DNA of 43,322 nt, taken from positions 1 to 43,322 of the IMG/VR virus record IMGVR_UViG_3300025704_001651. The stretch is one strand, 5' to 3'. Below, piece by piece: positions 2 to 27,288 of the stretch (within the stretch, counting starts at the first letter, position 1; every line of letters begins with the position of its first letter). The notes beneath the pieces are model-generated. The model worked only from the letters and a program-made list of their open reading frames with translations. It did not search any database and had not been told where the DNA came from. Origin of the DNA: a virus. A program made the translations under genes and the position numbers.

Positions 2-156
<155 letters not shown>

Positions 157-157
<1 letters not shown>

Positions 158-3606: not shown

Positions 3607-4891
3607 TGTGCAAGTTAGATTCAAACAAACAAAGCACATACTATCGCCCTTTGCAAACACAAGGATAGTGCCGTTTGTTGAGAGTTATCTCACAGTTCTT
3701 AAATCTGTTATCAATGATATAAAAACAGAATATTTTTGGTTCTTTAGTAACTTTGTTGATATGCAAGATATCGACTTAGATTTCATTCCCGAACAGCACG
3801 AACGAGACCAGATACACGTTTGGTATACCACACATCCGCAGGGAGGACTCAACAAGGAGGGAAACGTGATGCTGATACCTACCATGGAATTCAAAAAACA
3901 GATGCACTCTATAAGATTCCTCAGAGATTTCAAAGATATCAATTACCATGAACACGAAACTTTGTTTCAAAGACCAATTACAAAAACTATTTTCAAATTG
4001 AAAGATCCTGTTGATGCCTACAAAAAACAAAAGACTTTGTACACATGGATGATCAATAAAGATCTAGAGGACGAACCTGTTCCTGATTTTTATCCTAGTT
4101 TTTGGGAGGATGAGAAGATTTACACATGGGGCGAAACCAAGGACATAATGTTGGTTCCTGGAGACAAGGATATAAACCAGTTCTATGACATAGATAGACA
4201 GGTACACTTCAATTTAGATTATGCACGTAGGCCGATGGATATAGTTTTCCTGTCCTATGACGAGCCCAGTGCGGACAAATATTGGAAGGCACTCAAGGAT
4301 GCATATCCAAGGGCAAAACGCATACAAGGGGTTAAGGGAAGAACACAGGCATACCACGCCGCGGCCGTTATGAGTGAGACGGCCTATTTCTTTGCAGTGT
4401 TCCCTACAATAGATTTGGATCCTACTTTTGACTTCACTTTCCAACCTGATAGGCTACGAGAAGCCTGTCATTACATCTTCCATGCTAAAAATCCTGTGAA
4501 TGGACTGTCGTATGGACACAGGGCAGTGATATTGTACAATAAACACCTATGCCTATCAACAATTCATCCTAGTTTAGATTTCACGCTGTCGCAACCACAC
4601 ACAGTAGTTCCACAGTTGTGTGGAACAAGTTATTTTAATCAAACACCAGAGATCAGTTGGCGTGTGGCATTTAGAGAAGTGCTCAAGTTGTGTGAAATGA
4701 AACCCACAGTAGAATCTCGGCACAGGCTGAAAAAATGGTGTGAGTTGGGTGTAGGCAAATATGCATCATATGTACATAAAGGTGCTCTCGACGCCGTACA
4801 ATATTTCGATGAAGTTAAAGGCGATAAAAACGCTTTACAGTTGTCTTATGAATTGGAATGGTTAAAAAATAAGTTCAATTCTATTTCTTAA
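3596..4891 (+). CDS. Glycosyltransferase-like protein of marine phages
   Basis: The 431-residue protein has no textbook catalytic motif that I can name with certainty. Its second half contains MDIVFLSYDEPSADKYW, KRIQGVKGRTQAYHAAA and DFDFTFQPDR, then SWRVAFREVLKLC near the C terminus. I recognise this pattern from proteins of T4-like marine phages often annotated as putative glycosyltransferases. In those proteins a GT-A-like segment normally carries an acidic DxD-like site; here the equivalent stretch reads FPTIDLDPT. It is the last gene of the plus-strand sugar operon. Its end overlaps the convergent minus-strand gene by 11 bases. Role inferred: moving the modified sugar onto an acceptor. 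Confidence 0.55.
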   Translation: MFDSVQVRFKQTKHILSPFANTRIVPFVESYLTVLKSVINDIKTEYFWFFSNFVDMQDIDLDFIPEQHERDQIHVWYTTHPQGGLNKEGNVMLIPTMEFKKQMHSIRFLRDFKDINYHEHETLFQRPITKTIFKLKDPVDAYKKQKTLYTWMINKDLEDEPVPDFYPSFWEDEKIYTWGETKDIMLVPGDKDINQFYDIDRQVHFNLDYARRPMDIVFLSYDEPSADKYWKALKDAYPRAKRIQGVKGRTQAYHAAAVMSETAYFFAVFPTIDLDPTFDFTFQPDRLREACHYIFHAKNPVNGLSYGHRAVILYNKHLCLSTIHPSLDFTLSQPHTVVPQLCGTSYFNQTPEISWRVAFREVLKLCEMKPTVESRHRLKKWCELGVGKYASYVHKGALDAVQYFDEVKGDKNALQLSYELEWLKNKFNSIS

Positions 4892-6921: not shown

Positions 6922-7004
6922 TGGTAGTACCTCACAGTCGCCCATATTATGCAAAGTACGAATATTGCGGTTGATATGTATAGTGCCTTTGTGTCGTTAG
7001 TCAT
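6918..7004 (-). CDS. Very small membrane peptide (28 aa)
   Basis: A 28-codon frame begins with the ATG at 7004, overlapping the stop of the VWA-protein gene. It encodes MTNDTKALYISTAIFVLC, continues to a TyrTyrGln end, and stops at TGA 6918-6920. That TGA overlaps the next gene's ATG. The peptide is almost entirely one membrane helix. Support comes from the tight stop/start overlaps on both sides, as in its neighbours. The Shine-Dalgarno is weak, so translation may depend on coupling. It could be a chance frame. Confidence 0.5.
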   Translation of the reverse strand: MTNDTKALYISTAIFVLCIIWATVRYYQ

Positions 7005-8229
7005 TGTACTGTACCGTCATTCCGAAAGGTGCTTCAATGTCTCTCTCGTATGGATTGTTTATCAAGAATATTGTGTCACAGTAGTGTTCGTCACCCCACG
7101 TCTCGAAAGGCCAACCATCTGTGAACATAACAAACTTCTTGGGCTCTATGCCTTCTTCCTTCATGTAGTCCCAATTACATTCAAACTCAGTACCGCCACC
7201 TGAACCCAGTTCGTAGTCTAGTAACTCATCTGCGTTGTCTGGTGTGAACACTTTAGGATTGAACACCGCGGTGTCAAAACTCCAAAGATGTATTCTGAAG
7301 TCCTTGTATTGATCCATTATGTTCTTTACTTCTGTCAAGAACTCTTTACACTGTTCGTTGCTGATACTACCACTGGCGTCAAGTGCCAAGCATATGTCAA
7401 TCATCTCGTCATTGTTCTGTCCTGGCAGTATGGCAGATGTGTGCCAACTTTTTCTGCTGGGTCTCATCCAAGTGTAGTCCGACTTCAATGTGCTCATTAT
7501 CTGTTGTTGTAGTATTTCTCTCCAGTCCATCTTAGGCTCTGTGAGATCCTTTACCAGTCTCTGTAAAGCACCCGGCAGATTACTAGCACCTGTGCTCTGT
7601 GCCGCACTTACCATTGCTTCTTTTACTTCATCTCTGATCTTCTTCAATTCTTCTTTTGTGTAAACAGGCTTACCGCTCTTGCCACTTTTTTTATCATTAC
7701 CTTTTCCCTCACCTTGACCATCGCCTTTGCCCCACTCCTGGTGATCGTCCATCAGTTCACCCAACTTCTCTAGGAACTTCTTACCGTTCTTCTTGGCAGT
7801 CTTCATCAAGTCATCGTAAATTCTTTCTGATGCCCAGTCCTTGTACTTGTCATCCTGGAAGCCTTTGTTCTCACCTTTCTTGCCTTTGGGCATGTCACCT
7901 ATGTTGCTATCTTTCAATATCTGGTTCACGGCATAGTCCGCCGCTATGTTCCAAAGTTGTGGATCTCTGTCACCAATCCTCACCAGCATGTGTTCGAATA
8001 CATTGTGTAGAACCTCATGTCCAAACAGGAATTCTGTTTCTTTGGGTGTGAGTGAATCTATGAACTTGGTGTTGTAATAGAAGTGTCTACCATCTGTACC
8101 TGCTGTTGGACACCAATCATCTGCATTCACAAGTTTCAGTCTTGTTGCAAGGTTGCCAAAGAACGGATGCTTCAGTAGTAAGGCAATCCTTCCTGTGACC
8201 AGTTTGTCTATGATTCTTTGATCTTGCAT
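6997..8229 (-). CDS. VWA-domain protein with metallopeptidase-like N-terminal domain
   Basis: The protein has 410 residues from the ATG at 8229 (TAATG junction); an in-frame ATG at 8244 is also possible. The N-terminal half has HEVLHNVFEH (residues 71-80), a zincin-type HExxH variant as in DUF2201 'putative metallopeptidase' proteins. Residues about 165-190 are a Gly/Lys-rich linker. The C-terminal half is a von Willebrand A domain with the MIDAS motif DASGS (D284, S286, S288). In cells such proteins pair with MoxR AAA+ ATPases to remodel or insert cofactors into targets. The MoxR-like gene lies just upstream in the same operon. The phage target is unknown. Confidence 0.85.
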   Translation of the reverse strand: MQDQRIIDKLVTGRIALLLKHPFFGNLATRLKLVNADDWCPTAGTDGRHFYYNTKFIDSLTPKETEFLFGHEVLHNVFEHMLVRIGDRDPQLWNIAADYAVNQILKDSNIGDMPKGKKGENKGFQDDKYKDWASERIYDDLMKTAKKNGKKFLEKLGELMDDHQEWGKGDGQGEGKGNDKKSGKSGKPVYTKEELKKIRDEVKEAMVSAAQSTGASNLPGALQRLVKDLTEPKMDWREILQQQIMSTLKSDYTWMRPSRKSWHTSAILPGQNNDEMIDICLALDASGSISNEQCKEFLTEVKNIMDQYKDFRIHLWSFDTAVFNPKVFTPDNADELLDYELGSGGGTEFECNWDYMKEEGIEPKKFVMFTDGWPFETWGDEHYCDTIFLINNPYERDIEAPFGMTVQYND

Positions 8230-8444
8230 TATGCTATACCCCACTCAATTGATCTTGCTTCTGTCTCAGCACTTTCCTTTGAATCAAAGTATCCATCACC
8301 GTATTGTTCATCAATTTCATATTGTCCATTTACCTTTTTGTATCTGTCTACTCTCCATGTGTCTCCTATCTGGAAAACTCTCGAAGCAAACAATCCAGTT
8401 GGTTTGTGTTCTTTACGTCTATTGATGTGTTTGTACAGATACAT
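8229..8444 (-). CDS. Small hypothetical protein between MoxR and VWA genes
   Basis: This 71-residue, charged, probably soluble protein contains RVFQIGDTWRVDRYKKVNG and ends ETEARSIEWGIA. Both junctions are TAATG one-base overlaps, with the MoxR-like gene before it and the VWA gene after it. It is therefore almost certainly translated as part of the ATPase/VWA unit. No family is recognised. It may be an accessory of the MoxR-VWA pair, by position only. Confidence 0.68.
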   Translation of the reverse strand: MYLYKHINRRKEHKPTGLFASRVFQIGDTWRVDRYKKVNGQYEIDEQYGDGYFDSKESAETEARSIEWGIA

Positions 8445-9550
8445 TATTTAGACTCCATAGCAGTAATGACATACTTGCCAAACTTCTTATGGAACCTATC
8501 AAATGATTTCAACTTGCTAGGATCGAACGGAAGTTTGTAGTTTGTCAAGGCAATCTTGGCACCCATCACAACCAACTCTGTTTCGAAATTGTCCATCATG
8601 TAATTGAAGAACCTGTCCGCTTGTTCATTCCAAGTCTTGTCTTTCTTCTCGTGTGCCTGTTGTAGTTCATAACACAAAGAAACTGTTAGGGAGTACATTG
8701 CTGATATCTCCTTGCTCTTAAGGTCTCGGACCTTGCCGCTCAATATATCAGATGGGTTAGGTAACTGACCGCTAATTTTACGATGATTCATAAACTTAAC
8801 GGCCAGGCCTTCTCCTACGCAACCTGCTACGAGGTCAGTGAGCGTACTTTCTGGCAGGTCATCTGATAGAAGTTGGGATACGAAACTCCATGATCTAGGA
8901 GTTGCGAATGATCTAGAGCTACCTCTAGGGTCAAAGTCGTATAAATCTTGTTTGGCAAATGTGCAGTACCCTACGACATCTGCGTGTACGTGTTGGTTGG
9001 TTGCCCATTCCATCCAGTCTTCGAAGTCCACTCTTAATTCTACGTGGACAAATCTGTTTGCCAATGGAGCCGGCATTCTGTAAGTGACACCCTTGTCACT
9101 GTCCCTGTTACCTGCCGCCACGATCGAAACGCCTTCTGGTAGGTGATACTGTCCTACTCTTCTGTTTAAAATTAATTGATATGCCGCCGCCTGTACAGCC
9201 GGTGCCGCCGAGTTCAACTCGTCCAAGAACACTATTGCCTTAGACTTAGGATCAGTTGGCAGTTCTGCCGGACTCGCCCATACCATGTTGTTCTCTTTTG
9301 CATTGTAATAAGGAATACCCTTGATGTCTGTTGGCTCCCATAGTGGAAGTCTGATGTCAATGACTTCTCTGCCTTCTGCATCTGCTATCTGTTTTACAAT
9401 ATCGGACTTACCAATACCTGGTGCTCCCCACATCATTATGGGTCTCTGTAATTTGATACAATGTGTTAGTGCTGATTTCGCCTCGTTGGGTGAAACTGTT
9501 CTGTTTTGACTGCCTATTGCGGCCTCTTTGTTTTTGTTTGTTCTCGCCAT
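8444..9550 (-). CDS. MoxR-type AAA+ ATPase
   Basis: The protein has 368 residues. The ATG at 9550 is chosen because AGGAG lies 8 bases upstream; a GTG at 9559 is in frame but poorly placed. Walker A GAPGIGKS is at residues 42-49 and Walker B IVFLDELN at about 106-113. A sensor-1-like asparagine sits in IVAAGNRDSD, and an arginine-finger region in PLANRFVH. MoxR ATPases work as chaperones with VWA-domain partners, and such a partner is encoded two genes downstream. Pairs like this recur in marine T4-like phages; their function in infection is not known. A sigma70-like promoter lies just upstream. Confidence 0.88.
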   Translation of the reverse strand: MARTNKNKEAAIGSQNRTVSPNEAKSALTHCIKLQRPIMMWGAPGIGKSDIVKQIADAEGREVIDIRLPLWEPTDIKGIPYYNAKENNMVWASPAELPTDPKSKAIVFLDELNSAAPAVQAAAYQLILNRRVGQYHLPEGVSIVAAGNRDSDKGVTYRMPAPLANRFVHVELRVDFEDWMEWATNQHVHADVVGYCTFAKQDLYDFDPRGSSRSFATPRSWSFVSQLLSDDLPESTLTDLVAGCVGEGLAVKFMNHRKISGQLPNPSDILSGKVRDLKSKEISAMYSLTVSLCYELQQAHEKKDKTWNEQADRFFNYMMDNFETELVVMGAKIALTNYKLPFDPSKLKSFDRFHKKFGKYVITAMESK

Positions 9551-9584
9551 TTTGTACACTCCTGTTTAAAATGTTTATAGTATC

Positions 9585-16398: not shown

Positions 16399-16427
16399 AT
16401 TTTACTTTATTTTTCCAGATTAGTCAA
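16399..16427 (-). promoter_or_regulatory. Sigma70-like promoter, leaderless type
   Basis: On the minus strand: TTGACT (16427-16422), 17-base spacer, TAAAAT (16404-16399), then 6 bases and the ATG at 16392. The predicted +1 is the A of the start codon. The promoter overlaps the last codons of the upstream methyltransferase gene. Confidence 0.7.
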
Positions 16428-17081
16428 CTTCTTTCTAAATATAAAGTATTTCCTTTGGTTAGTGTCGTCTCTAATATCCAATATATCCAAATTAAACATA
16501 TTGGAAAGTTCTATGATAAAAGGAACATTCCATCCAAAGAACTCTATCCAGTATGCTTCTGGCTTGTCGTGTTGCACACCTGGGTTTACCCTGAAGAACA
16601 TGATACCACTGTCTGCCAGCAGATGCACACATCTCGATACCTCTGCAATGATCTTGTCTCTGTTACCAAAGTTCACCGAACCAAGACACAATATCGCATC
16701 AAACTTCTGATTTGTCTTGTATTCCAGTGTGCTAACTTTAAGGTCTGCTTCATCGTTGTATGGATCTATTCCTATCAAATTATCTATTTTGCCCTTAAAC
16801 TCATTGTACCCACACCCAACATCAAGCACTGCCCTAGGCTTAAGATTGTTGACTTCGTCTATCAGTGCAAGTCCAGAGTACTTCCATTTCTTCATGTCGT
16901 TCTGCCAGTATTTGGAGAAGTATTTGTTTAGGCAGGCGTCGTCTATTACTTGTACGTATTGTTCTATGGTGTCACATCTCTTAACTTCCACCCCAAATGT
17001 TTCTTTGATGTAGGGTTGTGTTATCTTGTTTAGGTCGTTTTGGCTGTGTACTAGCAGTTTTGCGAATATCTTTTTATTCAT
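16407..17081 (-). CDS. Class I SAM-dependent methyltransferase-like protein
   Basis: The 224-residue protein has motif I VLDVGCGYNEF (about 86-96) and an acidic motif II in LIGIDPYN. FDAILCLGSVNFG corresponds to motif IV, followed by a GIMFFRVNPG strand. This is the Rossmann-like SAM-binding core. N-terminal to it are about 80 helical residues. The substrate is unknown; small molecules, sugars or proteins are all possible, and there is no DPPY motif for adenine DNA methylation. AT-rich -10-like sequences (TAATAT 6 bases, TATAAT 8 bases before the ATG, with TAGACT upstream) hint at another short or absent leader. Confidence 0.78.
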   Translation of the reverse strand: MNKKIFAKLLVHSQNDLNKITQPYIKETFGVEVKRCDTIEQYVQVIDDACLNKYFSKYWQNDMKKWKYSGLALIDEVNNLKPRAVLDVGCGYNEFKGKIDNLIGIDPYNDEADLKVSTLEYKTNQKFDAILCLGSVNFGNRDKIIAEVSRCVHLLADSGIMFFRVNPGVQHDKPEAYWIEFFGWNVPFIIELSNMFNLDILDIRDDTNQRKYFIFRKKLTNLEK

Positions 17082-17113
17082 ACTGTTATATTATATAATA
17101 GTAGCAAGAAAGT

Positions 17114-17770
17114 CTATATATTTTTTTTTATCGGCTTTGACAATATCTGTCTAGTCTCATCAGTCATGACACCTGTAATTACCAACATGGGCCTAGGCTT
17201 GTTGCTGGCGTTTGCTGTTGAGTGTGGTAGGTTCTGCCAATCAAATTTGTGTATGTCTCCTGTCCGCCATCTGTCGAACTGTTCGTTACCGTACATTATG
17301 AATTGTCCTGGTTCCCAATCCTGCAACATTACCATTATACGAACAACATTATTAGGGTTGGCATCTAGATCATACAATTTGTCTATGTGCGTGTTCAATA
17401 CTTCTCCAGTGAACTGTATGTGTAGTTTAGATTTTGTAGAAGTCATTGCAAAGTAGTCTGTCATTCTTTGCAGTGTTGGACATTTAGTGAAGTCTGCTAG
17501 TCCTCTGTATATTGTCATCTTGGGATCTGCACCTGCTGTCTTTAGATCATTCTCTTCTGCTTCGACATTGATGTTGGTGTTTTCTCTGCCTGTACCTTCT
17601 CTACGGTTGCCCCAGTTCAGAGGTTTGCCATCTTCTATCACTGCTTGTAGTTCTGTCTGCCATCCACCTGTAAACTTGCCCAGGTGTTCAACACATTCTG
17701 TGTCCTTGTGCCATTTGTTGAAGTGGTAGTTGCTTCTTAATTTTGCGTCTTCCCAATTACTTGTAGACAT
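17114..17770 (-). CDS. 2-oxoglutarate/Fe(II)-dependent oxygenase
   Basis: The 218-residue protein has the iron facial triad: His128 and Asp130 in LNTHID, and His183 in LPHSTAN. Arg193 (KPRPMLVITG) is well placed to bind 2-oxoglutarate. The strand IQFTGEVLN and the segment QFIMYGNEQFDRWRTGD complete the double-stranded beta-helix. Such enzymes hydroxylate proteins, sugars, lipids or nucleic acid bases; the short C-terminal core resembles aspartyl-hydroxylase-type enzymes. It overlaps the sulfotransferase-like gene by 14 bases, suggesting a shared substrate or pathway. T4-like marine phages often carry several such enzymes without known targets. Confidence 0.8.
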   Translation of the reverse strand: MSTSNWEDAKLRSNYHFNKWHKDTECVEHLGKFTGGWQTELQAVIEDGKPLNWGNRREGTGRENTNINVEAEENDLKTAGADPKMTIYRGLADFTKCPTLQRMTDYFAMTSTKSKLHIQFTGEVLNTHIDKLYDLDANPNNVVRIMVMLQDWEPGQFIMYGNEQFDRWRTGDIHKFDWQNLPHSTANASNKPRPMLVITGVMTDETRQILSKPIKKNI

Positions 17771-18353
17771 ATACCTTGATATCCTTGTTCGTGTAGTTGT
17801 GTGTATGTATGCTGTCTCTGGGACCTGGTTCTTTTATTCCTAGGACCCGGCACAGGTCAAAATTGTCCACGGGACAGGTTATCCTGTTTAGGTTTTGCTG
17901 TATGAACCGTGTGATGTCTGTGTTTTCATCCTGTATGTGCGTCCACATCTTGTCCAAGTTCTCGAAGTGTTGGTAGTTGGGATATGTTATGCTGAACTCC
18001 CCACACAGTTTCCACCAGTCATAACATTCCATGTTGCTCCTGCGGACCAGCACGATGGGGTGTCCCAGCGTCTTCAGTTCGTCCAGTTGGTGTGCGAACG
18101 TGTGTGACTTGATGATCCTCCGGCCCGTGCCCGAGAATGGCTTGTCCCATTCGTCTCGACCGTTGTCGTACTCCATGCCTGGATCCCAATAGGCTCCTGT
18201 ATGCATAAGATGTTTGCGTCCAGGGGTATCGGCATCGTGGTAGTAGGTCCTTGCCTCGGAGTAGTCTGTGTGATCTATGTCATCACTCCAGTAGATGTTC
18301 TTGACAACACTACTCCACTTTGATCCTGGTGCCCCTGTAAACAAAATATACAT
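17757..18353 (-). CDS. Sulfotransferase-like P-loop protein
   Basis: The 198-residue protein begins MYILFTGAPGSKWSSVVKNI. The TGAPGSKWS loop matches the 5'-phosphosulfate-binding loop position of sulfotransferases. GRRIIKSHTFAHQL, then IVLVRRSNMECYDWW, resembles the 3'-phosphate-binding strand and helix. Family function would be transfer of sulfate from PAPS to an alcohol or amine. I recognise similar proteins in marine phages. Its start directly follows the tctC stop (TAGATG) and its end overlaps the 2OG oxygenase. A tailoring pair that hydroxylates then sulfates is possible, but inferred. Confidence 0.6.
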   Translation of the reverse strand: MYILFTGAPGSKWSSVVKNIYWSDDIDHTDYSEARTYYHDADTPGRKHLMHTGAYWDPGMEYDNGRDEWDKPFSGTGRRIIKSHTFAHQLDELKTLGHPIVLVRRSNMECYDWWKLCGEFSITYPNYQHFENLDKMWTHIQDENTDITRFIQQNLNRITCPVDNFDLCRVLGIKEPGPRDSIHTHNYTNKDIKVYVYK

Positions 18354-19400
18354 CTACTTGGTCAACTCTTCCTTGTAGATGGCATTGTAGCCCAATTGAT
18401 TCTTTCCAAAATCAGATAGTGTTTTCAATGCACCAGGTGTGATGAATGACTTCAGTGTTCTCACTGCGGCATCACCTTCCTCACCTGTTCTCCACTCGTA
18501 CTTGCCCACTTTCTTTTCGATGGCGGCCACCGACTCAGGATCCTTGATCATCTTGTCTAAAGCGTCGACAAGTTTTTGTTTGTTTGGATTGCCTGCGTTC
18601 ACCCAGAATGCTTTCTGTAATGCATCTCTCCAACTCTTTACAAGTTTGTATGCATCATAGAAGTCACCACTTGGTGCAACGCCATATGTAGATTCATACA
18701 GTGCTTCAAACGTTGGTTCTGTGAAGTTAGGATCTTCATCATGATCACCTGTGTTAACATTTAGTAGTCCATGATGGAACCAAGTGTATGCGTCACCTTT
18801 GCCTATTACTGGCATAACGTGTTTCTTGTATGCGGCAGGGTTCTCCCTGGTTGCGTTCAAGTCACCTCTGATGAATGCAAGTCTTCTCTCTGAGCCTTTC
18901 ATTCCTTTTACCCAAATGATCTTGTCTTCAAATGTTTTGATTGGATCACCGTTGGGACCTGTAAGCAACATAACGATTGCCATAATCTCTGGGGTCATTC
19001 CAGATCCTGACGGAAACTGTATTGGGCCATTTGTGGTGTCTGCTTTATTCCTCGCACCAACAATGATGTTGAGATTCATGTGTCCCACTGATTCCCAGTC
19101 AAAGTAGTTGTAATCAACTGGCTCAGTAAGATATGATATACCGTTACCGCCATGTGATACAAGTATAGTCTTGTTGTTGAATCTAAGTTCATTTTGGAAC
19201 TCGTTTGGCCCCAGTTGATCTCTTGCACCTGGCTTGTATATCAAGTTAATCTTCTCACCTAGGTGTTTCTCCCATTCTGCTACAACTATCTGTGCCCACA
19301 CAGAAGTTCCACCAGATGGTTTTTGTGGCACGATTAAATTGTAATCTGCCAATGCTGTTGTTGTTATTAAGAACAAGGCCATTATTGTTTTCTTAAGCAT
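18354..19400 (-). CDS. tctC: TctC-like periplasmic solute-binding protein
   Basis: The 348-residue protein has a clear signal peptide (MLKKTIMALFLITTTALA, cut after residue 18). The mature start YNLIVPQKPSGGTSVWAQIV resembles the Bug/TctC binding-protein opening, including the P.GG.T loop. Length is near the family norm. TctC proteins bind carboxylates such as citrate in the periplasm and deliver them to the TctA/TctB membrane complex. The ATG overlaps the tctA stop by 8 bases, so they are one operon. Phage expression would change uptake by the infected Gram-negative cell. The natural ligand cannot be read from the sequence. Confidence 0.8.
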   Translation of the reverse strand: MLKKTIMALFLITTTALADYNLIVPQKPSGGTSVWAQIVVAEWEKHLGEKINLIYKPGARDQLGPNEFQNELRFNNKTILVSHGGNGISYLTEPVDYNYFDWESVGHMNLNIIVGARNKADTTNGPIQFPSGSGMTPEIMAIVMLLTGPNGDPIKTFEDKIIWVKGMKGSERRLAFIRGDLNATRENPAAYKKHVMPVIGKGDAYTWFHHGLLNVNTGDHDEDPNFTEPTFEALYESTYGVAPSGDFYDAYKLVKSWRDALQKAFWVNAGNPNKQKLVDALDKMIKDPESVAAIEKKVGKYEWRTGEEGDAAVRTLKSFITPGALKTLSDFGKNQLGYNAIYKEELTK

Positions 19401-20829
19401 AGTCTAGTTTACTCCGTTTTGTTAATCCCCAATACAGTAAAAGTATAACACAGATCATTATGCAAATAAAGATCGGTCTCGTGACTAAATCATTTACCGT
19501 GTGGAGTGTTGTTAGTTGATAAGTGAGGCTATATATTCGATCACTTAATAGATATCCAATAAGCAGTGCTGGCCTGCTCACTTGGAATTTTTTACATAGT
19601 AGTCCCATGATTGAGAACACTAATAGCACTGCAAGGTCTTCCCACCCGCCTGTGTATTGCAAGGTCGCCCAAACTATCACAGCAAGTATGAAAGGAAAGT
19701 AATACACATATGGTACTCTTGTAACCCACCCCGCGAAATATGCCAGTCCATAACAGATGACAGCAGTTATGATTGTTCCTATTAAAAAAGCAAATGTCAT
19801 GCTGTCAAATAATCTGTCGTCGTAAAATGTATCAGGTGAACCTAGGTCAATGCCCAGGTATAAAAATAGTCCCATCAGTATCGCGGCGAAACTTGCACCT
19901 GGGATTCCAAACAGCACAGTTGGAATAAACGATGCGGCCTTCTGTGCGTTGTTGGCACCTTCGGCACCTATCACGCCTTTGACGTTGCCCACACCAAACT
20001 TCTCTTTGGGATTGGCCGCCACCGTGGCACCGTATGCTAACCAGTCTGCCATTGCACCACCCAGTCCAGGTAGCAGTCCTATGAAAGAACCTATGGCTCC
20101 TCCCCTGATGCTATCCTTCCAACATCTAATAGTATCTTTTACACCTTGTTTTAGATCTTGCCAACTGCCGTGTTCTGCTTTGATTGTTGTAGTCTTCTTT
20201 CTGTTGAACCATCCATTCCAAAGTTCTGGTATTGCGAACAGTCCTGCAACATAAGGCAGTATTTGTATACCATCTTCTAAATATCTCCAACCCATTGTGA
20301 AACGTGGAACGTTGTTTACATCAACTCCTACCAGACCTATGGTGACTCCTAATGCTATCGCCAACGCACTCCTGAAATATTTCCTAGTGGATACAAAGCC
20401 CACAGTCACAAATGCTAGTAGTACCAATGCCCATAACTCTGGTATGCCCATGTACATGACAACCTTGGTGTACCATGGCAAGAATAAAAATGTAAGTGAT
20501 CCAAAGAACAAACCATTCGCTGTGCTTGATGTTATCGCGGCACTCAATGCCCGTGTCGCCTCACCGTTCTTGGCCATTGGGAATCCGTCAACCATTGTTG
20601 CCGCCGCAGAGTTGGCCCCGGGTATGCCTAATAGCACACCACTGAAAGAATCACCGGTTGTTGAGGATGCCACGACTGCCACACAAAAGATCACACCCAG
20701 GTAGGGGTCGCCCACAAAGTAGGGCATGAATCCAAATAGTGTGATTAGTCCTGTCGTTGCTCCCGCGGCTGGTATTAGGCCAATGATCAAGCCGTACACA
20801 ATACCTGCCAATAATATAACAAGTTCCAT
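19393..20829 (-). CDS. tctA: TctA-family large transporter subunit
   Basis: The 478-residue, highly hydrophobic protein has about 11-12 membrane segments. It has the duplicated TctA signatures: LLGIPGANSAAATMVDGFPMAKNG in the first half, and LLPGLGGAMADWLAYG plus VLFGIPGASFAAILMG in the second. These are hallmarks of the tripartite tricarboxylate transporter large subunit, which moves carboxylates using a cation gradient. It is full length. The small partner subunit TctB (about 150 residues, four segments) is not found anywhere in the window. No good Shine-Dalgarno precedes the ATG. The gene is unusual for a phage; a host-derived metabolic gene is inferred. Confidence 0.88.
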   Translation of the reverse strand: MELVILLAGIVYGLIIGLIPAAGATTGLITLFGFMPYFVGDPYLGVIFCVAVVASSTTGDSFSGVLLGIPGANSAAATMVDGFPMAKNGEATRALSAAITSSTANGLFFGSLTFLFLPWYTKVVMYMGIPELWALVLLAFVTVGFVSTRKYFRSALAIALGVTIGLVGVDVNNVPRFTMGWRYLEDGIQILPYVAGLFAIPELWNGWFNRKKTTTIKAEHGSWQDLKQGVKDTIRCWKDSIRGGAIGSFIGLLPGLGGAMADWLAYGATVAANPKEKFGVGNVKGVIGAEGANNAQKAASFIPTVLFGIPGASFAAILMGLFLYLGIDLGSPDTFYDDRLFDSMTFAFLIGTIITAVICYGLAYFAGWVTRVPYVYYFPFILAVIVWATLQYTGGWEDLAVLLVFSIMGLLCKKFQVSRPALLIGYLLSDRIYSLTYQLTTLHTVNDLVTRPIFICIMICVILLLYWGLTKRSKLDYA

Positions 20830-20907: not shown

Positions 20908-21813
20908 CTATGTGCCTATTGCATTACCGAACAGGTATACGTGTACTCTGGCCGCCACGTTGTACCCTCTTTTGAATGCCTCTTCTGCCACTTTACCAGC
21001 ACCTGCTGTTTGTTCTTCTTCTCTTGCTCCTACAGGCATTATCCATACTGGCCAATCTACACCAGCCTCTCTGAATTTTCTCACTGTGTTTTCTAGTTCT
21101 TCCCATTGTCGTCTTTCATCTCCCACAACAAATTTCAGTTGTCCTCTGTCCGAACACTCCTTATATTCTGCTACGTTCTCAGGTTTGATTGCCTTCTCTG
21201 TCTTCTCCCCTGACACTGTGAATAGTTTGGGACTCACACTAAAGAATATCTCTTCCGGAATATTTTTTACCCACTGTTTGAATGGTTCAGTAAGTTTTTG
21301 TGTGCCGTTTGTTTCATATGTCATTGAACTTGGCAAGTTTGCTCTCTTTTCCAATGCCTTGTATATGCCCATGCTGGCGGCCTGCCCTGTAATCATCAGT
21401 GGTTCTCCGCCTGTGAAACACAGGTGTTGGTGTTGTCGTGAGTTTGGATGTAGGAACAATCCATTTGCGTTTGTGTCAGTCTTGAGTATGTCTACGATCT
21501 TGTCCGCCATCACAGTAGGAGTCTCGTGTCCCATCAATTTCTTGAACTTCTTTGCCCATGTGTAACTGGAATCACAACCTTTCTCCCACACGGGTAAATC
21601 TTCAACCCTCTTTACACTGTCGACGTCAAAGTCTTCAAACGGTAGATCATACGTGTCCGGATTGGTTGGATCCACTTGTCCGAATCCGCTACACTGTAAA
21701 TTGCACAAGAAGAATCTTATCCATGCAGTGGGCACACCCGTGTAGTGTCCTTCACCTTGTATGCTGTGAAATATCTCTGAATAGTAATATTTTTTTTCTA
21801 TTTCTTTTTCCAT
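20908..21813 (-). CDS. queE: QueE-like 7-carboxy-7-deazaguanine synthase (radical SAM)
   Basis: The 301-residue protein has the QueE start SEIFHSIQGEGHYTGVPTAWIRF, seen from residue 12. The radical SAM cysteines are C37 and C41 (FFLCNLQC), but the third is C80 in WEKGCDSSYTW, with 38 residues between C41 and C80 instead of the usual two. GGEP (135-138) contacts SAM, as in the family. QueE converts 6-carboxytetrahydropterin to 7-carboxy-7-deazaguanine. With FolE, a QueD-like protein and DpdA in the window, it most likely serves DNA 7-deazaguanine modification. The protein is longer than bacterial QueE (about 220), partly from that insertion. Confidence 0.85.
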   Translation of the reverse strand: MEKEIEKKYYYSEIFHSIQGEGHYTGVPTAWIRFFLCNLQCSGFGQVDPTNPDTYDLPFEDFDVDSVKRVEDLPVWEKGCDSSYTWAKKFKKLMGHETPTVMADKIVDILKTDTNANGLFLHPNSRQHQHLCFTGGEPLMITGQAASMGIYKALEKRANLPSSMTYETNGTQKLTEPFKQWVKNIPEEIFFSVSPKLFTVSGEKTEKAIKPENVAEYKECSDRGQLKFVVGDERRQWEELENTVRKFREAGVDWPVWIMPVGAREEEQTAGAGKVAEEAFKRGYNVAARVHVYLFGNAIGT

Positions 21814-22226
21814 AGGTCCGGATCTATATCTTTTGTTGCCTTGACTATATCATCCATTGTAAACTGTTCTTGCTTTTCTGTCAACTTTGGTTTATTTAGG
21901 TCGTCTGGGAAATCTCGGTAAAGGAAATGTTGTATAGTTTCAACATCCACATATTGGTTGAAACCTACGTGTACTTTGTCAACATCCTTGTCTGCTATGG
22001 TTATTGTCATGGCGTCGTCGAGTGCCTGCATGTTTACAAACTCCATGTCTATCCTGAACTCAGGCATGTCCATTGATCTAAAACCTAGTTTCATTCTCGT
22101 GATTCTGTACGTAATCATCTTGTTGTGTTCAACAAGTTTATCAAGGAACAGACTCATTTTGGCAACAAAATCATGTGCTGTAATATTTTTTTTGTGGTCT
22201 GCGTATATAGTATATATGTTAGCCAA
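21798..22226 (-). CDS. Small protein of dimeric alpha/beta-barrel type, TTG start
   Basis: 142 residues, read from a TTG at 22226. AGGAGG lies 5 bases upstream, and the TTG overlaps the stop of the amidinotransferase-like gene (22219). A downstream ATG at 22157 would lose conserved-looking sequence. The core YRITRMKLGF, EFRIDMEFVNMQALDDAM and VHVGFNQYVDVE suggests a ferredoxin-like alpha/beta fold; a final FLYRDFPDD motif follows. I think it resembles DUF6614-type proteins of marine bacteria, with low certainty. It lies between QueE and the amidinotransferase-like gene, overlapping both, so it is probably part of the same pathway. Confidence 0.65.
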   Translation of the reverse strand: MANIYTIYADHKKNITAHDFVAKMSLFLDKLVEHNKMITYRITRMKLGFRSMDMPEFRIDMEFVNMQALDDAMTITIADKDVDKVHVGFNQYVDVETIQHFLYRDFPDDLNKPKLTEKQEQFTMDDIVKATKDIDPDLWKKK

Positions 22227-23232
22227 AATAATCCTCCTGTGTGCCTTCCCTATACAAATCTTGTGTGATACAGTGTATGCCGCCATCCCAGAAGTACCTG
22301 TGTCGAAAGTTGAAAACAATAGGCTCGACTTTGTGTTTTTTAAAATGGTCAAAAACTGTTTTGTTGTAATTGTTGCATATAATCGTGTTTTGATCAATAG
22401 AAAGCATGTTCACATCAAACACTGTCTCTTCTACATACCCAACCCAGTCCTTCAACCAGGTGTTTACAAATTGTATTAATTGGTCATTGTGTTCTTCACC
22501 GTTGAGCCACCACTGTCCACCCACTTTGTCCTTCATCTTCAAAAAAGGACTTACCTTGTCCCATGATTGATCGGGTAGGTAGAGGACGTCCCATCCTGGA
22601 AAGTTTTCCTCGTATTTCTGTATTTCTTTCAAAGATACGATGCAACCTGGTTTAACCACACAAAATACTCCGTCGCTGTGATATCCCCTATCCGAAATGT
22701 GTACTCTGAATCCTTCATCTCTCCATTTTTGGGCATACTTGTTCATTATTTGTTTTGGTACTTCAGAATGTATGTCCCACCATAAATCTTTACCAACACG
22801 ACAGATAGAAGCCGTAGAAATGACAGGAGGAGTATTATCTATCCTTAAATTTTTTCTAGGAACTCTTTTTAATACATCAGTATAGCCGTCGATAGGTCCA
22901 CACACAGCATAAAGTGTTTCTCCGATTACTGCGAAATGATCTCTTGGATTTACTGGAGGCCTAAATATATTTTTAAGTGATCCTACTTTGTTAATATCTA
23001 AAAAACTTCTATATGTTTTTACACCTGCGTCTTTTAATATTTTTTCAAGTGTTTGATAATCCTCTTCTGTTTCATCTGCAATACGTTTGAGAGGATCCAT
23101 GATCTTGTTGTTCTTGTATATAGGTAGGTCATGAAACCATTCTGCTTGAAATCCGGATCCAATCCAACAGTGTTTTAATGGATCGAAAGTTGCGTAACCT
23201 TTGATAGGTATTTTATTTTCTTGATTTGTCAT
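22219..23232 (-). CDS. Amidinotransferase-superfamily protein
   Basis: The 337-residue protein starts at the ATG at 23232 (MTNQENKIP); a TTG at 23244 is also in frame. It has the glycine/inosamine amidinotransferase layout: FRPPVNPRDHFAVIGETLY in the first third, a central SDRGYHSDGVFCVVKPG, and RYFWDGGIHCITQDLYREG at the C terminus. In that last segment the cysteine is the expected nucleophile and the preceding histidine its partner. The family moves an amidino group from arginine to an amine, or hydrolyses related bonds. The neighbours on either side are a cupin gene and the 21798-22226 gene followed by QueE. The acceptor is unknown. Confidence 0.78.
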   Translation of the reverse strand: MTNQENKIPIKGYATFDPLKHCWIGSGFQAEWFHDLPIYKNNKIMDPLKRIADETEEDYQTLEKILKDAGVKTYRSFLDINKVGSLKNIFRPPVNPRDHFAVIGETLYAVCGPIDGYTDVLKRVPRKNLRIDNTPPVISTASICRVGKDLWWDIHSEVPKQIMNKYAQKWRDEGFRVHISDRGYHSDGVFCVVKPGCIVSLKEIQKYEENFPGWDVLYLPDQSWDKVSPFLKMKDKVGGQWWLNGEEHNDQLIQFVNTWLKDWVGYVEETVFDVNMLSIDQNTIICNNYNKTVFDHFKKHKVEPIVFNFRHRYFWDGGIHCITQDLYREGTQEDYFG

Positions 23233-23611
23233 TTTTTTTATCAAGCCTTACTACGTTGCCTGTCTGTAAATGACCCACAGATTCTCTTTGTATATCGTTG
23301 TGTCTGAATTCCGCCCAATACAACTCAAACGCAACACCATCTTCTAATCCCTCGAAAGAGTGATATAGTCCTGGCTTCACTGCTGTGTAGTCACCGGCTT
23401 TAAGTATGGTCTCGTCTACTAGGTCGTAGTCCTTCTGCCACACACGGATCTTCATCTCGCCTGACATCACGTAGAAACCATTCCATTTGTATTCGTGTTT
23501 GTGTTTTGAACACGTGCCACCTTTCACAAAATCTATCCTGTGAAATTCACAAGAACCGTTCGCTTCGATTAGTTCTGTTGATCCCCAAATTTTTCCTGCT
23601 TTGTTTCCCAT
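23213..23611 (-). CDS. Cupin-domain protein
   Basis: This 132-residue single-domain cupin has motif 1 GGTCSKHKHEYKWNGFYVMSG with His37, His39 and Glu40, and motif 2 GDYTAVKPGLYHSF with His84. These are the four usual metal ligands. Single cupins include isomerases, dioxygenases and sensor proteins. It ends overlapping the amidinotransferase-like gene by 20 bases. The ATG lies only 9 bases after a perfect -10 box and has no Shine-Dalgarno, so translation may be leaderless or nearly so. Function within the cluster is not determined. Confidence 0.78.
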   Translation of the reverse strand: MGNKAGKIWGSTELIEANGSCEFHRIDFVKGGTCSKHKHEYKWNGFYVMSGEMKIRVWQKDYDLVDETILKAGDYTAVKPGLYHSFEGLEDGVAFELYWAEFRHNDIQRESVGHLQTGNVVRLDKKNDKSRK

Positions 23612-23620
23612 GATGTTTTT

Positions 23621-23649
23621 ATTATAAATGTATTTAGATGTTTTGTCAA
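23621..23649 (-). promoter_or_regulatory. Perfect-consensus sigma70 promoter
   Basis: On the minus strand: TTGACA (23649-23644), 17-base spacer, TATAAT (23626-23621), then 9 bases to the cupin ATG. The -35 box overlaps one arm of the hairpin at 23646-23673. It should drive the cupin, the amidinotransferase-like gene, the 21798-22226 gene and queE. Confidence 0.85.
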
Positions 23650-23673
23650 TGGGGGAAATAAATCCCCCATTGA
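23646..23673. terminator. Perfect 11-bp hairpin, possible terminator
   Basis: The arms TCAATGGGGGA (23646-23656) and TCCCCCATTGA (23663-23673) pair perfectly around a 6-base loop. It follows the 27-residue membrane gene on the minus strand, at the end of the upstream transcription unit. Neither strand shows a proper U-tract after it, so factor-independent termination is uncertain. It may instead be an RNA-stability or insulating element. Confidence 0.55.
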
Positions 23674-23675
23674 TT

Positions 23676-23759
23676 CTAAAGTAGTGTGAATGCCACGACA
23701 GCCGTAACCGCTAGTACTACTGCTAGTATACCGGCGCCTGTGTAGACTTTGTTCATCAT
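23676..23759 (-). CDS. Very small membrane peptide (27 aa)
   Basis: A short frame starts at ATG 23759 (or 23756), one base after the TAG stop of the transporter gene. It ends at TAG 23676-23678, just before the hairpin. It encodes MMNKVYTGAGILAVVLAV, then a hydrophobic Ala/Val/Leu run: one complete membrane helix with a basic N-terminal side. Position, length and composition fit a real small membrane protein, possibly an accessory of the transporter. Function unknown; chance cannot be excluded. Confidence 0.5.
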   Translation of the reverse strand: MMNKVYTGAGILAVVLAVTAVVAFTLL

Positions 23760-23760
23760 A

Positions 23761-24363
23761 CTATTTCAGTTTGTAACTTTTTTGTAGTCTGTTCAGTAAA
23801 ATACCATATGCTGGTAGGAATACTAACAAGCCGACTGCAATTTTAATTACAACTTGAGATCCTGCGATCTCCATCCAGTTTGCCGCCATGTACTCGTCTG
23901 CACTGTTGTTGAATGCAACAGCAAAGAAAGTGTAAGTGTCAATGATGTTAGCCGCGATAGTTGATACCGCTGGTGCCAACCACCAATTGTTCTTGAACCC
24001 TTCTCTGATGTATTGGAATACATACACGTCAAGCATTGTACCAATTGCATAAGCAGTGGCACTTGCGAAACCAATTCTTACTGCGACCGATCCCGGTGCT
24101 CCTTCTGCCAAGACAACTGCAATGGATCCAATTATTGCTAATGGATAAGCCGCCGCGATTGTTTGTCTTGCTATTGTTTTACCCAGTAGCCTGACAGTCA
24201 AGTCAGTTGCTATTACTACTAATGGGAATGTGAATGCCGCCCACGTCAATTTCACACCGAATATCTCTACCGGTATAGCCACTAACGCATTTGAAACAGT
24301 GATCACTATCACGTGAAGTGCCACTAATTTCAACAGCATTGATTTGTCTACGTTTTTGAACAT
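23761..24363 (-). CDS. Queuosine-precursor transporter (VUT/YhhQ family)
   Basis: The 200-residue membrane protein has about six segments. It has the family blocks LTWAAFTFPLVVIATDLTVR, then LLGKTIARQT, and later NNWWLAPAVSTIAANIIDTY. These match the VUT (PF02592) pattern FPLtyl.tDl...GK..AR and W.R...St...qliDt. YhhQ-type proteins import 7-deazaguanine precursors such as preQ0 and preQ1. In a phage with QueE and DpdA, it would let the cell take up the base from outside. It has its own sigma70-like promoter and an AGGAG Shine-Dalgarno, separate from the queE unit. Confidence 0.8.
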   Translation of the reverse strand: MFKNVDKSMLLKLVALHVIVITVSNALVAIPVEIFGVKLTWAAFTFPLVVIATDLTVRLLGKTIARQTIAAAYPLAIIGSIAVVLAEGAPGSVAVRIGFASATAYAIGTMLDVYVFQYIREGFKNNWWLAPAVSTIAANIIDTYTFFAVAFNNSADEYMAANWMEIAGSQVVIKIAVGLLVFLPAYGILLNRLQKSYKLK

Positions 24364-24396
24364 TTAATCTCCTATAGGTTTTTTAATGTTACCTTA

Positions 24397-24426
24397 ATTG
24401 TACAGGATTTACCATGGATGTGTCAA
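24397..24426 (-). promoter_or_regulatory. Sigma70-like promoter for the transporter
   Basis: On the minus strand: TTGACA (24426-24421), 18-base spacer, TACAAT (24402-24397). A leader of about 27 bases with AGGAG precedes the ATG at 24363. A weak CACTG/CAGTG inverted repeat lies just upstream, at the end of the previous gene. Confidence 0.7.
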
Positions 24427-24444
24427 ACACTGAAACAAGATTTT

Positions 24445-25200
24445 TTACAGTGATACAACTTTTACGTTACTTGAATACTGTGGCGGCCGTGTTTTAACGT
24501 TTTGTAGGATATTGAAGGTTTCATCGTACTCAAAGATACTTGGATCAAAATTCCATTTGATTGGTCTTCCATCTCGCATGTTCTTTTTGCAAGGGTGCAA
24601 AAAATAAGTGTTGAATTTTTTGATTAAGGGCACATCTAATTGTTTGACCCCGCCGTGCCATGTTGCACTGGTCAAATTACCATTTTCAAGCACAGCATCA
24701 GTGCCTGGCCATTCTACGGCGTTGTCGTTGTCTCTGTCGATTGGATCCGCTCCTGCTTCTGTGTGCTGTATGAACTTTGGATTTCTCCATAGCATGTCTC
24801 CCAACTTCCGCAGTTTGTCATGTGACTCAAATAAGAATTTTGGAAAAAGGAATAACTTATCGATCATGAACATGTTAGACTTGGTCATGAAACCGTTTGT
24901 GCTGTTAGATCCATCGTCTGCTATTTTTATCTTTATGTAATTGCCTAGGACGGACTCGTCCACTTCATACACGAAAATTTTTTCTGGTAATTCTTGGGCC
25001 TTGTCTCTGAGTTTAGAATACCACCAGTTGAATTGTTTGATTCCCTTGTACTTTTTTGATTGGGTGTTGTCTACTGTGCGATAATTTATATCGTGGGTCA
25101 GCGATATGTCGTCCAACATAGTGTCATCGCTGTACAGTTTTATATCGAAACTTTTTGTATAGTGTTTGTAGATAAATGAGAAAACTAGGATGTATTTCAC
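24445..25200 (-). CDS. Conserved phage protein, function unknown
   Basis: About 251 residues if it starts at the GTG at 25200, whose GTGA overlap with the upstream stop fits neighbouring junctions and gives a natural MKYILVFSFIYK opening. In-frame ATGs at 25209, 25218 and 25233 are alternatives. The first 130 residues look beta-rich (a KIFVYEVDESVLGNYIKIKI segment, then NSTNGFMTKSNMFMIDKLFL), like a carbohydrate-binding or jelly-roll domain. The C-terminal half has NAVEWPGTDAVLENG and SATWHGGVKQLDVP. I know it only as a marine phage hypothetical. Confidence 0.65.
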   Translation of the reverse strand: MKYILVFSFIYKHYTKSFDIKLYSDDTMLDDISLTHDINYRTVDNTQSKKYKGIKQFNWWYSKLRDKAQELPEKIFVYEVDESVLGNYIKIKIADDGSNSTNGFMTKSNMFMIDKLFLFPKFLFESHDKLRKLGDMLWRNPKFIQHTEAGADPIDRDNDNAVEWPGTDAVLENGNLTSATWHGGVKQLDVPLIKKFNTYFLHPCKKNMRDGRPIKWNFDPSIFEYDETFNILQNVKTRPPQYSSNVKVVSL

Positions 25201-25661
25201 TTGTCCCATTCTTCCCATGGGAATACTATCCAACTGGGCACTTCGTCCTTGTTGATCTCGTATCCATGGTAATCTACTTTTACTTTTGAAGGTTTGTTGT
25301 TTATCAAGGCCGCGAATTTGATCCTGTCCTCACGCTTTCCGAAGTGGTCAAGTATGTACTGGAATGTTGCCCCGGAATCATTTATGTCGTCTATGATCAG
25401 TATCTTCTTTTGGAATGCGAATGCTTTCTCCAACACGGTTAGGTTAGGCTTGGCAGTGTGATCTCTCAATCTCACATCTAGCACTTCGTGTGCTGTTTTT
25501 AACCTGTGCGAAAGGTACACACCGGGTATGCAACCACCTCTGTTTATTCCCAGTATGATGTTTGGCATCCAGTTGCTATGGACCATCTTGTCCTCGATCT
25601 GTATTAATGCGTTACGCATCTGTCCTGTTGTGAAATAGTTCTTCTTTACATCATCAGCCAT
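25197..25661 (-). CDS. Type I phosphoribosyltransferase
   Basis: The 154-residue protein has the PRPP-binding motif ILIIDDINDSGATF, with the acidic pair and the glycine/threonine loop. An upstream ILGINRGGCIPG is the usual PPi loop of xanthine/guanine-type enzymes. Length matches bacterial Gpt (about 152). The family joins a purine base to PRPP to make a nucleotide. It lies between GMP reductase and the 24445 gene, near FolE, QueE and DpdA, so a role in salvaging purine or a deazapurine base is plausible. Specificity is not readable. Confidence 0.82.
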   Translation of the reverse strand: MADDVKKNYFTTGQMRNALIQIEDKMVHSNWMPNIILGINRGGCIPGVYLSHRLKTAHEVLDVRLRDHTAKPNLTVLEKAFAFQKKILIIDDINDSGATFQYILDHFGKREDRIKFAALINNKPSKVKVDYHGYEINKDEVPSWIVFPWEEWDK

Positions 25662-25981
25662 TGTACAATATACCTCGCTCCTCCTGATACCAACATCGCC
25701 AGTAGTATCGTATTTAAAACTATAAGTGCCCGGTCATGCCATTTGAATCCCACCCAAAGCCAGCCTGCTGTTCCAATTATTGAAAAGAACACATCATATA
25801 TCTTTGGTACTTCTTCAATTGATCTGCAAAGCACCGCACAACACACAAAGAACACAGATACCCATTTAACATACCAAGTGATATCGTGCAATGGTGTGAC
25901 CTTGCGAACACTGGTCAATTGATCTTCGAGTGTCTCAATTTTTTGTTCTAGATCTTCTATTCTATTTTGTGTATCGCTCAT
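25646..25981 (-). CDS. Membrane protein with N-terminal coiled coil
   Basis: The protein has 111 residues. Residues 5-27 form a heptad-like coiled coil (IEDLEQKIETLEDQLTSV). About three membrane segments follow: WYVKWVSVFFVCCAVLC, VFFSIIGTAGWLWVGF and ALIVLNTILLAMLVSG. The membrane part resembles small phage and bacterial proteins labelled DUF6552, in my judgement. It overlaps guaC by 20 bases and the phosphoribosyltransferase by 16, so it is co-expressed. No function is known. Confidence 0.68.
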   Translation of the reverse strand: MSDTQNRIEDLEQKIETLEDQLTSVRKVTPLHDITWYVKWVSVFFVCCAVLCRSIEEVPKIYDVFFSIIGTAGWLWVGFKWHDRALIVLNTILLAMLVSGGARYIVQWLMM

Positions 25982-27011
25982 AGACCCTGTTGATCACGTT
26001 GTTGGTTGTCACGAAACTAGCACACTTGGCCATGTCTTTGAGTCTTCTTGCACCTATGTATGTGCAGGCACTTCTTACTCCGCCTAGTATGTCTTCCAAG
26101 GTTCCTTCAACAGGTCCTCTGTGGGGCAAGGATATCAGTCGACCTTCGTTGCCTCGGTATCCGTCCTTGCGTTTGCCGTGTTTCTCACGAGCCCTGTCCG
26201 AGCTCATTCCATAAAATTCTACTTTGCCATCTACTACTGGCTGTTCTGATTCATCATGTCCTGCCAACATGCCACCAATCATGACCATGTGGGCTCCTCC
26301 ACCAAATGCTTTTGCTATATCTCCTGGATACACACAACCACCGTCAGCCATTATGTGTCCACCAACACCGTTTGCCGCATCTGAACAATCCACTATTGCC
26401 GAAAATTGTGGTACACCAACACCGGTCATCGTTCTTGTAGTGCAAACCGATCCAGGCCCTATCCCTATTTTGACCACGTCGGCACCATTTATTATTAACT
26501 CTTCTGTCATCTCTGGTGTCACTACGTTGCCTGCTATGATAACCTTGTCTGGATATTCATCTCTAACCTTTTTTATGAAATCTACCATGTTCTGGTGATA
26601 TGCGTTCGCTACATCAACAGTGATCATCTTTACATCTGGAAACATTTCTAAAACTCTATTCATGGTCGCCCAATCAGGTGCTTCCGGATCCCACATCACG
26701 TTGGTTCCTGTACACACTGACACCGATTGCATTCTCAATCCTGTGCCTGCGGCCTCTTTCCATTGCTCTGGTGTGGTAGTTTTTGTGATAACGGTCATCA
26801 TCTTGTGCTTCTGCATTTCCCTTGCCATAGAGAATGTACCAACACCGTCCATGTTACTTGCAAATATAGGAAGGAAATCCATCACCTTGCCTGAGTTACG
26901 GAACGTGAACTTACGAGTCATGTCTACATCTCTCCTGCTAGACAGTGTAGAACGTTTTGGCTGAAGCAGTACGTCCTCAAAATTAAGTTTTGGTTCTGTG
27001 TTAATCCGCAT
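25962..27011 (-). CDS. guaC: GMP reductase (IMPDH/GMPR family)
   Basis: The 349-residue protein starts at ATG 27011 (MRINTEPKLNFEDVLLQPKR), which has a Shine-Dalgarno-like AAGGA upstream. The catalytic loop is GIGPGSVCTTR with Cys190. GMP reductase rather than IMP dehydrogenase is indicated by MIGGMLAGHDES, EFYGMSSDRA and the C-terminal ILGGVRSACTYIGARRLKD. There is no CBS domain. The enzyme converts GMP to IMP with NADPH. Placed among FolE, a phosphoribosyltransferase and deazaguanine genes, it probably lowers or redirects the guanine nucleotide pool during infection; that is inference. Confidence 0.9.
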   Translation of the reverse strand: MRINTEPKLNFEDVLLQPKRSTLSSRRDVDMTRKFTFRNSGKVMDFLPIFASNMDGVGTFSMAREMQKHKMMTVITKTTTPEQWKEAAGTGLRMQSVSVCTGTNVMWDPEAPDWATMNRVLEMFPDVKMITVDVANAYHQNMVDFIKKVRDEYPDKVIIAGNVVTPEMTEELIINGADVVKIGIGPGSVCTTRTMTGVGVPQFSAIVDCSDAANGVGGHIMADGGCVYPGDIAKAFGGGAHMVMIGGMLAGHDESEQPVVDGKVEFYGMSSDRAREKHGKRKDGYRGNEGRLISLPHRGPVEGTLEDILGGVRSACTYIGARRLKDMAKCASFVTTNNVINRVYERYTK

Positions 27012-27288
27012 CTTCTTTTTCCTTAGTTTTACAGACTTGTAGCACACTCTGGTAGTGTTCCCATGCTTGATTCAGTGCTGGGTACTTGTCCCTCATGTCC
27101 ATCTCGTCAAAAAGATCCAACTGTCCCATGTCACCTAGGTCTCTAAAACTGTAAGAGAAGTCTCCAGTGTTCTGTATTCCATCTGAACCCATTTCTATGT
27201 TGTCCGATTTCATGTTGGCCTGTTTTGTATATTCCCACAGGTCGTCTACAATTTTTTTCTCTTTTTTTGTAATGTTTTTCTTAGGCAT
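27001..27288 (-). CDS. Small acidic protein, function unknown
   Basis: The protein has 95 residues. A basic helical start (KKNITKKEKKIVDDLWEYTK) is followed by an acidic, methionine-rich part (DLGDMGQLDLFDEMDMRDKY) and a helical end ALNQAWEHYQSVLQ. It overlaps guaC by 11 bases and follows folE with a 3-base gap. No family is recognised. It is likely expressed with the nucleotide genes. Confidence 0.65.
   Translation of the reverse strand: MPKKNITKKEKKIVDDLWEYTKQANMKSDNIEMGSDGIQNTGDFSYSFRDLGDMGQLDLFDEMDMRDKYPALNQAWEHYQSVLQVCKTKEKEDAD

Follow-up and report, generated by a model that had tools for sequence, protein, structure and literature searches.

Tripartite tricarboxylate transporters (TTT family) are characterised by paired GxxxGxxxGxxPGxG motifs, one in each half of the TctA permease. 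In the TctCBA system of Salmonella (TC 2.A.80), TctA is accompanied by a periplasmic binding protein, TctC, and by a third subunit, TctB, with the genes in the order C-B-A. TctB is poorly conserved and of unknown role, and Archaea possess TctA homologues without it, yet the small subunit proved essential in TRAP transporters, a related family (PMC5812351). In SAR11 and other Alphaproteobacteria, TctA also occurs fused to a C-terminal TctB-like domain. Among phages, cyanophages encode PstS, a periplasmic binding protein expected to promote nutrient uptake, in that case within a phosphate ABC system (PMC3429862). For phage tctA, a literature search returned no description beyond the mention of a SUP05 viral contig (PMC4164917), on which a TctA domain was proposed as a metabolic gene; in the passage concerned, that paper reports a domain match only, calls the role unknown and presents no analysis of a binding protein, lineage, TctB or substrate.

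The locus described here lies in a window (the whole stretch of DNA that was analysed) of 43,322 bases, an IMG/VR record that is itself a fragment, probably of a jumbo phage genome. The following features of the window were considered:

19393..20829, minus strand: tctA, TTT-family permease of 478 aa (PF01970, E=1.5e-94)
19393..19400, minus strand: overlap of the tctA end and the tctC start, 8 nt, coupled genes
18354..19400, minus strand: tctC, intact ORF for a 348-aa divergent TctC-type periplasmic binding protein
19347..19400, minus strand: TctC signal peptide, 18 residues ending in TTTALA and followed by DYN, from sequence inspection
17757..18353, minus strand: P-loop-like gene, 198 aa, GAPGSKWSS motif, sulfotransferase-like by inspection
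17114..17770, minus strand: probable 2OG-Fe(II) oxygenase, 218 aa, HxD...H...R pattern
16407..17081, minus strand: probable SAM-dependent methyltransferase, 224 aa, VLDVGCG motif, weak NCBIfam matches

The phage pair resembles Salmonella TctCBA in combining a TctA permease with a periplasmic binding protein, but its proteins are remote from those of Salmonella, which has three subunits including TctB. Archaeal stand-alone TctA homologues likewise occur without TctB (PMC5812351) but, unlike the phage pair, they are also without TctC. Compared with cyanophage PstS, the difference is that binding protein and permease are both phage-encoded. The cellular TctAB-fusion systems of SAR11 and other Alphaproteobacteria (loci L218, L219 and L227) share with the phage pair a TctA about 35% identical, a matching binding protein and adjacent genes; their TctAs measure 651-678 aa, a TctB-like domain at the C-terminus included, and are encoded after the binding-protein gene, whereas the phage TctA has 478 aa, lacks a TctB part and is encoded ahead of its binding protein. 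The TctA/TctC family is known; what is new is a conserved branch specific to phages that lacks TctB and brings its own binding protein, together with the finding, from sequence comparison, that the nearest cellular relatives of the phage TctA are TctA-TctB fusions. The pair is predicted to form a phage tricarboxylate importer during infection, working without TctB or with that of the host, and we consider this reading rather probable.

The tctA-tctC pair and its carriers

In the window, tctA is an intact ORF that spans positions 1-422 of the 423 of Pfam TctA, in agreement with the full-length permease of the original prediction, and its C-terminus holds no TctB domain. Hydropathy analysis gives at least 9 segments, for a family expectation of 12 TM helices; the AlphaFold model was unusable (pLDDT 35) and PDB sequence searches returned nothing convincing for TctA. 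The second-half motif is intact (GLLPGLGG). The first-half motif reads GLIPAAGA (GLVPAAGA in one) across all 15 phage sequences, that is, PAAG in phages and PGxG in cells; of 53 cellular TctAs with a recognisable motif, 52 have P-G. With PAAG replacing PGxG, mechanism or substrate may have shifted in the phage permease.

The phage TctC is recognised by no Pfam or NCBIfam model, and PDB sequence searches with it gave nothing convincing. A profile built from 23 phage TctC sequences matches the binding proteins adjoining the closest cellular TctAs (E down to 2e-27), with full-length alignment to the cellular binding proteins encoded beside TctAB fusions, and two cellular binding proteins of TctAB operons match PF03401 at E ~2e-5, just under the cut-off. 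In a fold search with a modest, low-confidence AlphaFold model (pLDDT 61, pTM 0.65), the best 10 PDB matches were all TctC/Bug proteins, with weak E-values (best 6e-3). On the basis of these intermediates and of the modelled fold, the product of the second gene is assigned to the TctC family of binding proteins, the identity originally proposed. The proposed signal peptide is likewise recovered by inspection: the N-terminus is typical (MLKKTIMALFLITTTALA followed by DYN), and its charge-hydrophobic-AxA layout is retained in 23 relatives.

An IMG/VR scan yielded 80 viral contigs with tctA (77-100% identity), and a second scan, which used a divergent member, contributed 16 more contigs, one of them at 61%; the pair is present on at least 96 IMG/VR contigs, with tctA 61-100% identical. 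In 77 of the 78 related loci of the first scan, tctA is followed by tctC with an exact 8-nt overlap, and both ORFs are intact in the window, as expected of the two-gene unit first described. Relative to the window's tctA, 15 representatives show 78-93% identity; in L135 the tctA-tctC order is kept at 61% and 53% identity, respectively. An interrupted tctA would have spoken against that description, and the gene is uninterrupted in nearly all relatives. No isolate phage in the phage collection searched carries the tctA-tctC pair, and the seven TctA matches retrieved there (25-32% identical, for the most part faecal or enteric records without annotation) fall outside this clade.

Both genes are under strong purifying selection (median dN/dS of 0.06 for tctA and 0.056 for tctC, computed at dS 0.8-0.9). 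The presence on at least 96 contigs, the dN/dS of 0.06, the monophyly of the phage clade (support 100) and a codon GC that resembles that of the rest of the window argue that the pair is maintained by selection and is neither a transient pickup nor contamination. Bacterial contamination was rejected because the pair is surrounded by phage genes on many contigs.

The window is viral by content (T4-type exonuclease, DNA polymerase B and other phage families), and Gp23 capsid genes are found on records related to it. The closest relatives of its DNA polymerase are those of the jumbo phages Phosso and Atu_ph07 (46-50%). On a related 108-kb record (L055), the capsid protein is 65-70% identical to capsids of phages of 350-490 kb, whereas that of another carrier (L102) is 69-75% identical to those of the pelagimyophages HTVC008M and Mosig and of Methylophilales phage Melnitz. 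The tctA-tctC unit is therefore present in two distant T4-superfamily lineages: its carriers, all of them recovered as fragments, include pelagimyophage-like phages and jumbo T4-superfamily phages, the latter probably with the window among them.

SAR11 genomes have a GC content near 30%. With a GC of 42% and jumbo-phage-like genes, the window does not indicate a SAR11 host. The same module, together with phage genes, was also found on a 7.9-kb contig (L082, GC 43%) of a Candidatus Pelagibacter MAG among GTDB genomes, probably a misbinned phage contig; it was not accepted as evidence for a SAR11 host because the contig is itself phage-like and differs from SAR11 in GC.

Cellular relatives and the search for TctB

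The closest cellular TctAs, about 35% identical to the phage TctA, are nearly all 650-715 aa long and possess a C-terminal extension, which is TctB-like by Pfam in two SAR11 examples (E 0.002-0.004). In the tree, the phage TctAs form a single clade (100/100) that joins one TctA-TctB fusion clade (96/95) by a branch as long as 2.6 changes per site. The phage TctC profile matches binding proteins in 16 of the 17 operons of the fusion clade at 2e-15 or better, whereas in other clades 14 of 15 operons have no binding protein matching phage TctC and the remaining one is weak (8e-9). Since the nearest cellular relatives are fusions, the phage lineage probably lost a fused TctB, and with the tree and the independent binding-protein matches taken together, loss of the TctB part is the simplest history. 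Given the long phage branch and an AU test that did not reject all fusions as one clade apart from the phages (p-AU 0.148), TctB may also never have been present. Under the loss history, the ancestor of the pair would be a cellular operon in which a binding-protein gene stood beside a TctA-TctB fusion; the TctB part would then have been lost and the gene order inverted, and the pair would have passed between two or more phage lineages of the T4 superfamily.

The phylogeny against SAR11 and other marine Alphaproteobacteria that was originally suggested does place the phage TctA with an alphaproteobacterial fusion clade, but at only about 35% identity and with no indication of a SAR11 host. Recent pickup from SAR11 was rejected: the best identity among 147 genomes was 35%, and, phage contig excepted, no closer TctA was found among 398 genomes at the phylum level or, by profile search, among 289 at the class level.

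Phage TctA and TctC could dock onto a host TctB and thereby redirect or boost an existing host system. Phages often provide some subunits of a host complex, e.g. cyanophage PstS (PMC3429862); conservation among the subunits is lowest for TctB, and Alphaproteobacteria commonly possess TctA/TctB systems of the host type. The closest cellular relatives, however, have TctB covalently fused to their own TctA, which would leave no free matching TctB for a hybrid, and we regard such docking as rather unlikely.

The absence of TctB from the window, part of the original prediction, says little by itself, because the window covers just 43 kb of a probable jumbo genome. The search was therefore extended: PF07331 revealed no TctB in 20 records, and a profile built on the C-terminal portions of the cellular fusion proteins revealed none in 43 records, i.e. 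the window and 42 others (up to 172 kb). The same profile detects separate TctBs beside unfused cellular TctAs (L200, 6e-19; L204, 4e-7). A scan of small multi-TM ORFs gave no conserved candidate near tctA; the sole 4-TM ORF in gene orientation within the window (23761-24363) was rejected as a TctB stand-in and encodes a Vut_1/YhhQ-type transporter. A TctB diverged beyond recognition, or encoded in an unsequenced part of the genome, would complete a normal tripartite system, and the search is limited in this respect by incomplete records, by jumbo relatives of 350-490 kb and by the poor conservation of the subunit (PMC5812351); set against a profile that performs on cells and against the ORF scan, this less likely alternative appears improbable.

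Neighbouring genes

The minus-strand order in the window is QueE-like gene, tctA, tctC, P-loop protein, probable 2OG-Fe(II) oxygenase and probable methyltransferase. The P-loop-like gene directly follows tctC in 79 of 81 loci, and its product has no Pfam, PHROG or PDB match. The 2OG-oxygenase-like gene is present in 49 of the 81 loci (~60%), with HID/H/R invariant in the alignment; its product has a weak match (E=4e-6) to a cyanophage protein annotated as a 2OG-Fe(II) oxygenase, and a PDB sequence search with it gave nothing convincing. The methyltransferase gene is tied to the module in both lineages, a 31-36% homologue standing directly before tctA in the second. These three genes (16407-18353, minus strand) accompany tctA-tctC in two distant lineages and have almost no homologues in isolate phages. 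With them, the pair might serve a non-nutritional role at the envelope (change of the host surface, metabolite export or superinfection block), as the linkage of modification-type genes in both lineages, the long phage branch and the changed first PGxG motif would allow, but co-retention of both transporter partners, strong purifying selection and a gene order that stays fixed even with different neighbours make this a very unlikely alternative to import.

On the other side of tctA, the region 20908-27047 (minus strand) contains the QueE-like gene, the Vut_1/YhhQ-type transporter gene (23761-24363) and an IMPDH/GMP-reductase-like gene (25962-27047), which suggests a 7-deazaguanine or queuosine module. 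At 22219-23244 (minus strand), a 341-aa protein (phrog_25854) is amidinotransferase-like by inspection and has a remote homologue near tctA in L135. Elsewhere in the window, a possible sugar-modification cluster on the plus strand (106-4891) includes a Nod-type carbamoyltransferase (106-1620) and a DegT/StrS aminotransferase (2545-3606), and a DUF2201 metallopeptidase/VWA protein adjoins a MoxR-like AAA ATPase at 6997-9559 (minus strand).

Predicted substrate and mode of action

A PrpF/aconitate-isomerase-type gene was found within 8 kb in 12 of the 17 fusion-clade operons and in 0 of 15 controls (p=3e-5, a descriptive value, because L218, L227 and L229 first drew attention to the PrpF/TcuA link and were themselves included in the count, and because related genomes contribute loci that lack independence). 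In L218 and L219, from SAR11-order genomes, a single operon combines the TctAB fusion, the binding protein, the tricarballylate dehydrogenase TcuA (E=3e-170 in L218), a PrpF-type isomerase and two aconitases, and looks like a tricarballylate/aconitate utilisation cluster. TcuA forms cis-aconitate from tricarballylate (Lewis and Escalante-Semerena 2006, listed as reference 40 in PMC10468695). From these PrpF, TcuA and aconitase genes, the cellular ancestor probably imported a C6 tricarboxylate, which is also the likely cargo of the predicted phage importer, by extension from relatives about 35% identical; that the PrpF family covers 4-oxalomesaconate tautomerase as well counts against this assignment. 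The organic-acid importer of the original prediction is retained as probable from sequence comparison, but its relatives are tricarballylate/aconitate-type TctAB fusions and not generic carboxylate systems.

In the predicted importer, TctC would be exported to the host periplasm, where it would capture a C6 tricarboxylate, with aconitate, tricarballylate and citrate as the most likely candidates, and hand it to TctA, an ion-gradient-driven permease of the inner membrane. The imported acid would join the host TCA cycle via aconitase and provide carbon and reducing power. Import could proceed through the two phage proteins or in cooperation with a host TctB or TctAB, and neither option is dismissible, given that Archaea have TctA without TctB and that the role of TctB is unknown, yet the TRAP small subunit was found to be essential (PMC5812351). 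That the pair is a functional two-part importer, from which the fused TctB domain was removed and which feeds infected cells aconitate- or tricarballylate-type acids, is put forward tentatively.

Phage genes that aid uptake have so far been known mainly for phosphate, whereas the present pair combines a binding protein and a permease for a probable carbon source. A widespread and strongly selected pair in uncultured viruses from two large phage lineages suggests that some marine phages change the carbon uptake of the infected heterotroph, and the aconitate/tricarballylate gene linkage in the cellular relatives provides a concrete candidate substrate. The absence of TctB makes the question of its role testable and, if the two-part importer is true, the phage pair would offer a natural setting in which to study the function of TctB.
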